Under the pieces are notes generated by a model, which saw only the letters and a list, made by a program, of their open reading frames with translations, was not told the DNA's origin and did no database searches. A stretch of 42,619 nt of DNA from Patescibacteria group bacterium (GTDB lineage: Bacteria > Patescibacteriota > Patescibacteriia > Patescibacteriales > GWC2-42-12). A program made the position numbers and the translations under genes. Below are positions 8,185 to 26,935 of this stretch, in pieces; within the stretch, counting starts at the first letter, position 1, and each line of letters opens with the position of its first letter. The stretch spans positions 1 through 42,619 of the forward strand of contig JAQVNC010000007.1 in assembly GCA_028703305.1 (NCBI GenBank), read 5' to 3'.

Positions 8185-8206
8185 ATATATAATTTAAAAT
8201 TTATAA

Positions 8207-8307
8207 TATCAAATAAAATTTAATGGCCGTAGAGCCCCGCCCGCCACGCAAGACGAGCTTGCGAGGCGTTGCGGGCAGGTTTGCTCGCTATTAAATTTTA
8301 TTTGATA
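8207..8307. repeat. Inverted-repeat element in the atpH-atpA spacer (copy A)
   Basis: Perfect 18-bp arms TATCAAATAAAATTTAAT (8207-8224) and ATTAAATTTTATTTGATA (8290-8307) enclose a 65-nt GC-rich core. The core starts GGCCGTAGAGC, continues GCCCGCC and holds nested inner pairs (CGCAAG/CTTGCG; GCCCGC/GCGGGC). The element at 26826 has the same core opening and is followed by the same tail. Confidence 0.85.
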
Positions 8308-8360
8308 CAATATATTTTTTGAAAGTATTGAAAACTTTTTCTAAAAAAGTTTTCAAAGGT
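8304..8360. repeat. Conserved tail of copy A with TTGAAAAC hairpin
   Basis: The text from GATACAATATATTTTTTGAA to the end of the spacer is nearly identical to 26879-26935. It contains the inverted repeat TTGAAAACTTTTT / AAAAAGTTTTCAA. In both places it directly follows the stop codon of the upstream minus-strand gene (atpH here, nadK there). Confidence 0.8.
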
Positions 8361-17079: not shown

Positions 17080-17091
17080 ATGATTATATTT

Positions 17092-17217
17092 GTCATTGCG
17101 AGGAGCGTTAGCGACGAAGCAATCCCACGTATTATAATCTTTAGCAAAATATTACCACCTTAATTTTAAGTTATCATTCGTGAGATTGCTTCGCTCCTTT
17201 TAGTCGCTCGCAATGAC
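17092..17217. repeat. Paired GTCATTGCGAG inverted-repeat element, downstream of metG
   Basis: Left arm 17092-17129 (GTCATTGCGAGGAGCGTTAG then CGACGAAGCAATCCCACG) faces right arm 17179-17217 (CGTGAGATTGCTTCGCTCCT then TTTAGTCGCTCGCAATGAC). The about 50-nt centre is AT-rich and contains ATTACCACCTTAATTTT. The same arms and the same centre word occur at 18657-18781 on the other side of metG. Confidence 0.85.
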
Positions 17218-17226
17218 ATCTTTAAA

Positions 17227-18645: not shown

Positions 18646-18656
18646 ATTCTTGCGTT

Positions 18657-18781
18657 GTCATTGCGAGGAGCTTCAGCGACGAAGCAATCTCACGAATAAA
18701 AATATTTATAAATAATTGCCACCTTCATTTAAACAATTCATCAGTGAGATTGCTTCGCTCCTTTCAGTCGCTCGCAATGAC
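18657..18781. repeat. Paired GTCATTGCGAG inverted-repeat element, upstream of metG
   Basis: Left arm 18657-18696 (GTCATTGCGAGGAGCTTCAG then CGACGAAGCAATCTCACGAA) faces right arm 18744-18781 (GTGAGATTGCTTCGCTCCTT then TCAGTCGCTCGCAATGAC). The centre carries ATTGCCACCTTCATTT, matching the centre of the element at 17092. Confidence 0.85.
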
Positions 18782-19545: not shown

Positions 19546-19640
19546 AGGCTTGGTAAATTATTTTTATCGCGCATATGAAATTGTAGCGACCGCAGGGAGC
19601 CCAAATTTCATCTAAGCAGAAAAAATAATTTACCTAAGCC
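19546..19640. repeat. Inverted-repeat element upstream of rsmI (copy C)
   Basis: Outer arms AGGCTTGGTAAATTATTTTT (19546-19565) and AAAAATAATTTACCTAAGCC (19621-19640) match apart from a one-base indel. Inner arms ATGAAATT (19575-19582) and AATTTCAT (19604-19611) surround a GC-rich core TGTAGCGACCGCAGGGAGCC. The arm sequence is unlike those of the other copies. Confidence 0.75.
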
Positions 19641-24122: not shown

Positions 24123-25913
24123 TTATTTTCCCCGCCCGGCTTTTATCCTGTCATTTTTAGTTAAATACATCTTGCGCAACCTGATGTTTTTAGGAGTAAC
24201 TTCCAAATATTCATCATCTTTCATAATGCCTAAGCCTCGTTCCAGAGTAATTTCGTAAGGCGGAATAAGCTTAATGGCCTCATCCGCGCCCGAGGCGCGC
24301 ATATTGGTTAACTGCTTGCCTTTAATCGGGTTAACGTCCAAATCGTTGCCTTTGGCGACGTTGCCGATGACCATTCCTTCATAAACTTCAACATTGGCAC
24401 TGATATATAAAGTGCCGCGCTCTTGCAAATTCCATAAAGAAAAAGCCAAAGCTTTGCCCGAGACCATGGATACCATTGAGCCTAATTCGCTTTTGGCAAT
24501 TTCACCGACATGCGGCTTAAAGCCGGCCACATGCGTGCAAATTATACCCTCGCCCCTGGTATCAACCACAAATTCATTGCGATAGCCCAAGAGACCTCTG
24601 ACCGGTATCTCAAACACCATCCTTATGCCGGCATGTTCCGGATTCATTTCTTTCATCAAACCTTTTCTTTTAGCCATTTTCTCAATTATCACGCCTGACA
24701 TTTCCTGCGGCACGTCAATAGTGACTTCTTCAAAAGGCTCTAGCTTAACGCCATTCTCTTCTTTGATAATTACTGTCGGCTGGGAAACTTGAAGTTCAAA
24801 GCCTTCACGGCGCATATTTTCAAGCAAAATAGCAATATGCAATTCGCCCCGGCCGTAGACTTTATAAAAATCTCCGTCAGCGAAATCAATTTTTAAACCC
24901 ACATTTACTTCAAGCTCTTTCTCCAGCCGCTCTCTTATCTGCCGGCTGGTGACATACTTGCCTTCCCGTCCGGCGAATGGCGAATTATTAACTAAAAAAT
25001 TCAAGGAAATAGTGGGCGGATCCACTAAAATAGCCGGCAAAGCTTCCTGGGCGGCGTCCAAACAAATAGTTTCACCTATATAAATATCAGGGAGTCCGGC
25101 GACCATGACAATATCCCCGGCCGCGGCCTCTTTAACTTCCTTTCTTCTTAAGCCTTCAAAAGTGAACAGTTTGGAAATTTTTCCGGTTCTTACTTCTCCG
25201 TTTGGTTTTTTAATTATGACATTATCCGCCTGTCTGGCCACGCCTTCATAAATTCTGCCGATCGCCAACCGGCCGATAAAATTATCATAAGCCAAATTAA
25301 ACGTCTGGATCTTTAGGGGTAGCTTAGCCTCTTCGGTCGAAGAGGCTGGCTTGACTTTCTCCAAAATAACATCCAAAAGCGGATTTAAATTATCGCTTAT
25401 GTCCGCCATATTCTTTTTAGCAATGCCTTGGCGGGCGATAGCGTAAACGGTGGTAAAATCAAGCTGCTCGTCATTCGCGCCCAAATCCAAAAACAATTCA
25501 TAAACTTTTTCCAGCGCCCATTCAACCCTGGCTGCCGGCTTATCAATTTTATTTATCACCACGATCGGCTTAAGCCCGAGTTCCAAAGATTTTTTTAAAA
25601 CAAACTTAGTTTGCGGCATGGGCCCTTCTTGGGCATCCACGACTAAAAGCACCGAGTCAATTGAGCGCAAAACCCGCTCTACTTCCGAGCCGAAATCAGC
25701 GTGCCCCGGCGTATCAACAATATTTATTTTCGCTCCCTTATATACAACCGAAGTATTTTTTGAATAAATCGTGATGCCGCGTTCAAGCTCCAAAGCGTTT
25801 GAGTCCATGCTTACGCCCGACTCGGTCATGCCGGTTTGCTGCATTAACCTGTCCGTTAAAGTGGTTTTACCGTGATCCACATGGGCGATAATGGCGATAT
25901 TTCTAATTTCCAT
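24123..25913 (-). CDS. typA: Ribosome-associated GTPase TypA/BipA
   Basis: Translational GTPase of the EF-G/LepA class that acts in ribosome assembly and stress adaptation. 596 residues, close to the usual 600-615. G1 AHVDHGKT (10-17), G2 region with RGITI (45-49), G3 DTPGHADF (near 66-73), G4 NKIDKPAARVEW (near 120-131); then domain II, the EF-G-like domains III and V (EPFEEVTIDVPQEMSGVI, about 398-415), and the BipA-specific C-terminal part with VVDTRGEGII and the ending KAGRGK. It has its own promoter 190 nt upstream and a leader that holds a long inverted-repeat element. Confidence 0.96.
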   Translation of the reverse strand: MEIRNIAIIAHVDHGKTTLTDRLMQQTGMTESGVSMDSNALELERGITIYSKNTSVVYKGAKINIVDTPGHADFGSEVERVLRSIDSVLLVVDAQEGPMPQTKFVLKKSLELGLKPIVVINKIDKPAARVEWALEKVYELFLDLGANDEQLDFTTVYAIARQGIAKKNMADISDNLNPLLDVILEKVKPASSTEEAKLPLKIQTFNLAYDNFIGRLAIGRIYEGVARQADNVIIKKPNGEVRTGKISKLFTFEGLRRKEVKEAAAGDIVMVAGLPDIYIGETICLDAAQEALPAILVDPPTISLNFLVNNSPFAGREGKYVTSRQIRERLEKELEVNVGLKIDFADGDFYKVYGRGELHIAILLENMRREGFELQVSQPTVIIKEENGVKLEPFEEVTIDVPQEMSGVIIEKMAKRKGLMKEMNPEHAGIRMVFEIPVRGLLGYRNEFVVDTRGEGIICTHVAGFKPHVGEIAKSELGSMVSMVSGKALAFSLWNLQERGTLYISANVEVYEGMVIGNVAKGNDLDVNPIKGKQLTNMRASGADEAIKLIPPYEITLERGLGIMKDDEYLEVTPKNIRLRKMYLTKNDRIKAGRGK

Positions 25914-25931
25914 AATAATATTTATTTTTGC

Positions 25932-26028
25932 TTGGGCTAAATTTGTAAAATTTTCGTGCGAGGACTGTGTGAGGCCGCCAGCAGGCGGACGAGTTCCGAG
26001 AGGAGTAAATTTTATAAATTTAGCCCAA
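25932..26028. repeat. Inverted-repeat element in the typA leader (copy D)
   Basis: Arms of 22 nt: TTGGGCTAAATTTGTAAAAT plus TT (25932-25953) and AAATTTTATAAATTTAGCCC plus AA (26007-26028), with one mismatch. The core contains GCGAGGACTGTGTGAG, an inner GCCGCC-AGCA-GGCGG hairpin and CGAGTTCCGAGAGG. In the minus-strand typA transcript it would form one long stem-loop just before the start codon. Confidence 0.8.
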
Positions 26029-26065
26029 TCTTCATGTCGTTAAAAGTCTAGACAGTTTTTATAAA

Positions 26066-26825: not shown

Positions 26826-26881
26826 ATCAAATAAAAATTTTATGGCCGTAGGGCTTTGCCCGCCATAAAATTTTATCTGAT
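26826..26881. repeat. Inverted-repeat element after nadK (copy B)
   Basis: Arms ATCAAATAAAAATTTTATGG (26826-26845) and CCATAAAATTTTATCTGAT (26863-26881) pair with one indel and one mismatch. The core GGCCGTAGGGCTTTGCCCGC is itself a hairpin (GGGC-TTT-GCCC). The core matches the opening of copy A at 8207 (ATGGCCGTAG, GC, GCCCGCC). Confidence 0.85.
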
Positions 26882-26935
26882 ACTTTATATTTTTTGAAAG
26901 TATTGAAAACTTTTTCTGAAAAAGTTTTCAAAAGT
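26879..26935. repeat. Conserved tail of copy B with TTGAAAAC hairpin
   Basis: Nearly identical to 8304-8360, including the inverted repeat TTGAAAACTTTTT / AAAAAGTTTTCAA (26903-26931). It abuts the nadK stop codon. Confidence 0.8.

Follow-up and report, generated by a model that had tools for sequence, protein, structure and literature searches.

A hairpin with a fixed tip and stems rewritten in matching pairs suggests a mobile element recognised as folded single-stranded DNA

The hairpin at the start of typA

The window, i.e., the whole analysed stretch of 42,619 nucleotides of a Patescibacteria group bacterium (contig JAQVNC010000007.1, genome G000 in the following), contains the gene typA on its minus strand and, adjoining the start of this gene, a long hairpin (Table 1). 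The two outer arms of 22 nt each are 95% complementary, enclose 53 nt and contain a single mismatch, which is a G opposite a T on the + strand. RNA folding of positions 25920-26060 yields -45.7 kcal/mol compared to -30.5 +/- 3.4 kcal/mol for shuffled sequences (z -4.48; 0/200 shuffles as good). The stem-loop with one G-T mismatch, as given in the preliminary description of this DNA, is thereby confirmed, and the two core motifs and the GCCGCC/GGCGG hairpin described there are all present at their places. The assignment to the typA leader holds insofar as the element adjoins the typA start, but the distance from the ATG to the arm is 18 instead of 19 nt, and since typA is encoded on the minus strand, the element in the orientation originally written down is antisense to typA.

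Table 1. Coordinates of the hairpin, its parts and the neighboring gene in the window
Feature	Position	Strand	Basis or remark
Whole hairpin element	25932..26028	+	Core orientation +, antisense to typA; aligned with 30 other copies
Left outer arm	25932..25953	+	Arm complementarity; covarying helix 1
Right outer arm	26007..26028	+	Arm complementarity; covarying helix 1
Left core half GAGGACTGTGTGAG, consensus GAGGACTGTYTGAG	25960..25973	+	Core pattern matches
Inner tip hairpin CCGCC-AGCA-GGCGG with flanking G/C	25973..25990	+	Fold; helix 3, 5/7 pairs changed on both sides
Right core half GAGTTCCG plus atypical AGAGGAG (usual CAGTAG)	25991..26005	+	Core pattern, copy comparison
GTCG tetranucleotide just beyond the right arm	26036..26039	+	Weak evidence
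typA/bipA, context gene outside the element	24123..25913	-	GTP_EFTU and BipA_C domains

The core consensus of the family is GAGGACTGTYTGAG-[small hairpin]-CGAGTTCCGCAG, which we read as probable stacked G.A irregularities (TGAG/CGAG, CGAGG/CCGCAG). The core pattern matches the window only once, and this copy is atypical on its right side, CGAGTTCCGAGAGG, as GAGTTCCG is followed by CAG in 192/219 copies and by AGA in three. The variant CCGAGAGGAG instead of CCGCAGTAG is found in the window copy and in two more, in L262 and L308.

Further upstream in the typA leader (26131-26073, minus strand), a promoter-like TTGACT-17-TATATT precedes a short hairpin with a T-run, both lying ahead of the coding sequence. 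A similar hairpin with T-run was seen by eye in nine of ten typA leaders, G002 being the one without, which suggests transcription attenuation of typA. A scan for intrinsic terminators found none overlapping the element, so this candidate was rejected. The window also harbors hairpins of other families. The second family (8196-8318 and about 26826-26890) has ATGGCCGTAG.GC in AT-rich arms, followed by the palindrome TTGAAAGTATTGAAAAC, and the third is marked by GCGCATATGAAATTGTAGCGA (19552-19634), its copies in L274 containing different inner hairpins where the short core would be. The elements at 8207, 19546 and 26826, which had been described as sharing the layout of the typA hairpin, thus have the long-stem layout in common with it, but belong to these other families.

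Copies, insertion sites and arm covariation

The core pattern GAGGACTGNNTGAG-N4..26-GAGTTCCG is present in 24 copies in the 925-kb genome G000, 13 forward and 11 reverse, and the reversed control pattern gave no match there. Three genus mates contain 17, 8, and 8 copies, respectively. Searching the core in further Patescibacteria genomes, as had been proposed, was productive: 10/41 genomes of a sample of relatives contain at least one copy, as do 3/286 genomes of an even sample of the phylum, own genome included in both, so that the distribution among relatives is patchy. Predicted reading frames are avoided by 67/69 copies of the own genome, genus and family, the other two overlapping one. 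A scan of the GTDB collection revealed at least 118 core loci. Among the matches listed, these fall into about ten phyla, as assigned by us from the record titles, namely Pseudomonadota, Bacillota (Lachnospiraceae), Actinomycetota (Coriobacteriia), Bacteroidota, Nitrospirota, Myxococcota, Spirochaetota, Elusimicrobiota, Gastranaerophilales, and Patescibacteria. The core is enclosed by complementary arms (score at least 20) in 108/132 copies with enough flanking sequence among the matches listed, compared to 12/132 with a shuffled left arm and 6/132 when one arm is taken from a different phylum. At least one copy with complementary arms is present in nine of the ten groups among these matches, the single copy of Gastranaerophilales being without. 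The motif pair inside complementary arms is thus found in many genomes, and the preliminary description, which would have been refuted by its absence from all others, is not refuted.

In 35 core-bearing genomes, which we picked from the at least 118 loci, the number of copies ranges from 1 to 66. The 66 copies belong to a genome of the Myxococcota (L077, L129, L184); in many of its listed copies the inner tip departs from the simple perfect hairpin that is found in most other groups. The cultivable carrier Niveibacterium sp. 24ML has 25 copies. At least one match, in Reyranella (L097), looks like chance. Some genomes, e.g., G070 and those of Rhodocyclales, carry copies in head-to-head pairs about 200-250 nt apart; the own genome has single hairpins. 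A search of phages with one 34-nt core consensus gave no match, the same query retrieved 12 plasmid records with weak matches, one of which covers at least 80% of the query, and the core pattern occurs in two viral contigs of the IMG/VR collection. A phage or plasmid element was rejected as the core is rare in viruses and plasmids. Six core strings of 11-15 letters, searched for in the partially available literature text, returned matches that, among those listed, looked by title like primer or probe coincidences; figures of REP papers may show the core.

The comparison of orthologous sites revealed that the element is present in some species and absent from others. Two of ten readable typA leaders carry it, with up to 330 nt of each leader read (only 113 in G005 and 222 in G006; G007 without the start). 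G001 carries it at the corresponding position, its arms differing by a compensated change of two bases (TAAATTT/AAATTTA vs. TGGATTT/AAATCCA), and the typA sites of G006 and G003 are empty, with three unaligned bases in the latter. Altogether six insertions, typA and five others, face empty or nearly empty orthologous sites, in which the arms are absent too. The insertion in L262 of G001 has a clean empty site in G002, and about 25 nt are retained in G000; the one in L268 of G002 has clean empty sites in G000 and G003, and that at L274:8496 of G000 a clean one in G002. For the insertions in L290 of G002 and L299 of G003 the sites in G000 are nearly empty, with short unrelated stretches remaining. 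Since the arms are absent along with the core in the clean cases, the arms at these sites were not pre-existing palindromes of the host. Other site pairs in the same comparison are messy, and three sites hold a different hairpin family in other species. In similar copies of G002 the unit extends to about 150 nt and includes an additional inverted repeat on the outside, approximately TGAACTCAT/ATGAGTTCA. No target-site duplication was defined at the insertions. Possible decay products are a core-less palindrome in G001 opposite a full element of G000, and a right arm standing alone in G002 (L264, L268). Furthermore, CGTC-REP-like repeats of the GTCATTGCGAGGAGC type occupy gaps at 17084-17225 and 18656-18780 of the window, where G001 has the core element, which shows that different hairpins use the same intergenic sites in sister species.

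The covariance of the arms, for which a test had been proposed, was clearly found in 31 of 70 listed copies, a set that we chose for its common long form and from which the short-tip subtype and others are excluded. In this set 96.9% of the cells are paired and 20/36 pairs are changed on both sides, with 148 both-side changes compared to 42.9 in shuffles, and the covariation score is 0.401 compared to 0.131 for shuffled and at most 0.084 for slid alignments. Five pairs of the core helix are invariant and thus uninformative on covariation either way. A fixed tip together with stems that are rewritten in matching pairs suggests that folded single-stranded DNA is the form in which the element moves and is recognised.

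The folded strand

Triloop tips are present in 106 of 219 distinct copies, 103 of them closed by a C-G pair, and 90/106 have the sequence GNA (GAA 40, GCA 25, GTA 23, GGA 2). Among control hairpins of the same loci, 11/104 triloops are GNA and four more on the opposite strand (15/104 for both strands), which is a rough comparison as control stems have at least seven pairs and element tips at least two. By our own count, 39/219 copies have no two-pair inner stem. GNA and GNNA loops with at least two G-C pairs form extraordinarily stable DNA mini-hairpins, as stated in the available part of the source (PMC4686876). Among the arm mismatches read on the core strand, 165 are G.T and 94 A.C (139 vs. 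73 by distinct context), the ratio being 76 vs. 23 in Patescibacteria and 89 vs. 71 elsewhere, where it is not significant alone (p 0.18); the copies are related, so that p values are too small. Using DNA parameters the + strand folds better in 69/73 copies of Patescibacteria and in 129/141 others. RNA parameters favor the + strand as well (72/73 and 123/141, respectively), and therefore folding alone is no proof of DNA.

Both flanking genes are antisense to the core strand in 54/69 copies (21/24 in the own genome, 33/45 in genus and family) and in sense in 4/69, so that antisense accounts for 54/58 tandem contexts. In own genus and family an mRNA hairpin would consequently be formed by the opposite strand. 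The three signs, i.e., the GNA tips, the G.T excess and the antisense strand, point indirectly to one folded DNA strand. Moreover, the core strand is on the side of negative GC skew in 66/69 copies (23/24 in the own genome, 43/45 in genus and family). A general strand bias across taxa was rejected, since the collection copies show none, with 67/149 on the positive side among the matches listed; on the negative-skew side are 7/8 copies in G302 and 13/23 in G070, and by taxon there is no other clear bias. GC skew usually marks replication. If the bias tracks replication, the core strand would be on the leading-strand template side, opposite to the preference of IS608. The bias could also follow gene direction instead of replication, or it may reflect the loss of hairpins folding on the lagging template. 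The second hairpin family, with eight of nine copies on the negative-skew strand, the third, with all six copies in the same orientation to GC skew, and one more with 5/6 are biased in a similar manner in the stretches of the own genome that were examined, and hence the bias probably belongs to the host genome and is not specific to this element.

Interpretation and known systems

Repetition, presence or absence together with the arms, a conserved tip core, covarying arms, and a preferred strand characterize this hairpin. It is probable that they reflect a small non-autonomous mobile DNA element of about 100-150 nt, a REP/REPIN-like hairpin handled as single-stranded DNA, which would be the form that moves or is recognised. 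A trans-acting enzyme would recognise one DNA strand, folded into a hairpin whose irregular tip is conserved, and the element may have moved in this way into short intergenic gaps. By analogy with TnpA-REP, the protein would read the core with its mismatches, bulge and often GNA-capped tip and accept any paired arm, and because any paired arm would be tolerated, the arms could drift in compensating pairs. Such a protein would be a strand-specific recombinase of single-stranded DNA that is encoded outside the element and can pass between phyla. That all copies are one family, with a fixed tip of about 30 nt across about ten phyla and free paired arms, moved as single-stranded DNA by a widely shared or horizontally moving hairpin recombinase other than RAYT or Y1, is a possibility that we put forward tentatively. 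The designation as a mobile hairpin, one of two options originally considered, is supported by the multiple copies, the empty orthologous sites and the recurrence of the core within different complementary arms in many genomes. The insertion at typA is probably a passenger, and incidental as far as the comparison shows.

An unlikely explanation is a true REP/REPIN with long arms and a diverged tag that is mobilised by a REP-associated tyrosine transposase (RAYT), even though the irregular hairpins, the strand asymmetry, the intergenic location and the head-to-head pairs of some genomes fit with it. The own genome does contain a Y1/RAYT-like gene (L054, 1-680), but this gene bears a different palindrome of the AGCGGTCGGACCGCT type before and inside its reading frame. 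A tag-like GT[ACG]G is present within 14 nt of the right arm in 11/50 genus copies compared to 0/50 at a control position, which is weak and would speak for RAYT, but it lies 3' of the stem without directly adjoining it. In the 50 copies of G000, G001, and G003, GTAG itself was found near the right arm (14 nt) in four, CGTC in one compared to two of 50 at the control, and neither of them in the left flank of any copy, for GTAG on either strand. Furthermore, a Y1 transposase (PF01797) is encoded in 23 of the 35 picked core-bearing genomes, and none was found in the other 12, among them G054 with 14 copies, G052 with 22, G061 with 23 and G070 of the Parcubacteria with 34, nor was one found in G012 with 15 copies. 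Most Y1-free carriers are drafts, and absence is therefore weak evidence there; the strongest case is G054, apparently a single-record Nitrospirales chromosome of 2.35 Mb. Among the relatives, Y1 is present in 9/10 core-bearing compared to 19/31 core-free genomes (p 0.13), and 43 fetched Y1 loci, a part of all Y1 matches, contain no core. RAYT was rejected as partner because the association is weak and not universal. When 2272 reading frames located up to 2.5 kb from copies were clustered, no mobile-element protein recurred among the clusters listed; these comprise housekeeping families and spurious frames derived from the repeat, so that no partner gene could be accepted from them. Six proteins encoded between paired copies match Pfam FTCD_C or 8xMP or have no match.

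It is quite improbable that the hairpin is an RNA element, i.e., a structured regulator or small RNA that is transcribed from the + strand and maintained by selection for pairing within the RNA. The strong covariation with G-U type intermediates and the better folding of the + strand with RNA parameters would be in line with this, but the + strand is antisense to both neighbors in most copies of own genus and family, and the insertions come and go between species. Among 30 tetraloop tips, moreover, there is one GNRA and no TTCG. None of the Rfam models reaches its gathering score in the window; with the threshold relaxed to E 10, only two matches appear, MIR7993 (21.9/100 bits) and SscA (13.1/60), both far below cut-off, for which reason an Rfam family was rejected.

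Template switching at replication can restore the identity of arms. Chance or host-made palindromes perfected in this way, which would also go along with the core-less or one-armed derivatives, are nevertheless very improbable, as a core of about 30 nt is common to several phyla and the process should be strand-symmetric, with no excess of G.T over A.C expected. Least of all can a conserved leader or attenuator controlling typA be expected, the other option originally considered: at 18 nt before the start codon the hairpin would fold in the 5' UTR, but it is missing from 8/10 readable typA leaders, its mRNA strand folds less well with RNA parameters, a separate terminator-like hairpin is present upstream in the same leader, and other copies lie beside unrelated genes.

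To our knowledge, short palindromic repeats of bacteria are mostly linked with a local transposase, or with none that is known. A constant tip core from Patescibacteria to Proteobacteria, Bacillota and Nitrospirota, with arms that share only their pairing, may serve as a sequence handle for finding a DNA-moving enzyme. The core pattern would indicate selection on a folded DNA strand, not on RNA or double-stranded sequence, and hairpins that an annotation could take for riboswitches or attenuators, the one at typA for example, may prove to be mobile passengers.

Among known systems, REPs are high-copy intergenic palindromes of 20-40 bp; the element is multi-copy and intergenic as well, but about 100 nt long. 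According to the available part of PMC8266576, TnpA-REP binds REP as folded single-stranded DNA and on one strand only, and irregularities of stem and loop as well as the GTAG tag matter. The element resembles REP/REPIN with RAYT in being intergenic, multi-copy, an irregular palindrome with one strand preferred, and in occurring in single and head-to-head forms. The mobile unit of a REPIN consists of two inverted repeats, whereas the element is paired in G070 and Rhodocyclales and single in the own genome. It is different in its arms of 20-45 nt that vary between copies, in a tip core spread across about ten phyla among the matches listed, and in having no GTAG or CGTC tag abutting the stem, and Y1 was not found in many carriers. 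Since two defining features of REP/REPIN, the tag and a RAYT gene flanked by the repeats, are not shared, the element is not filed as such. CGTC-tagged REPs, which in the accessible part of PMC3733652 are said to lack a dedicated transposase, have stems of 8-9 bp, mostly loops of 4-5 nt and a terminal CGTC (PMC3733652), whereas the stem of the element is long, its core irregular and a tag of this kind absent. The ends of IS608 (IS200/IS605) are hairpins that are read as single-stranded DNA by the Y1 transposase with an orientation following replication, as far as the available text of PMC5371812 goes; the element differs by having no transposase gene inside, by a strand bias of apparently opposite sign (PMC5371812, in part) and by a Y1 that is not consistently found. 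MITEs are defined by terminal inverted repeats in common with an autonomous transposon and a target-site duplication; for the element, presence and absence are seen, but no autonomous copy is near the copies examined. Rickettsia palindromic elements are often located in frame inside genes, according to the available part of PMC10969869, compared to 2/69 copies of the element that overlap a predicted frame. They are alike in being palindromic mobile elements of about 150 bp, with several families per genome (PMC10969869, same part).
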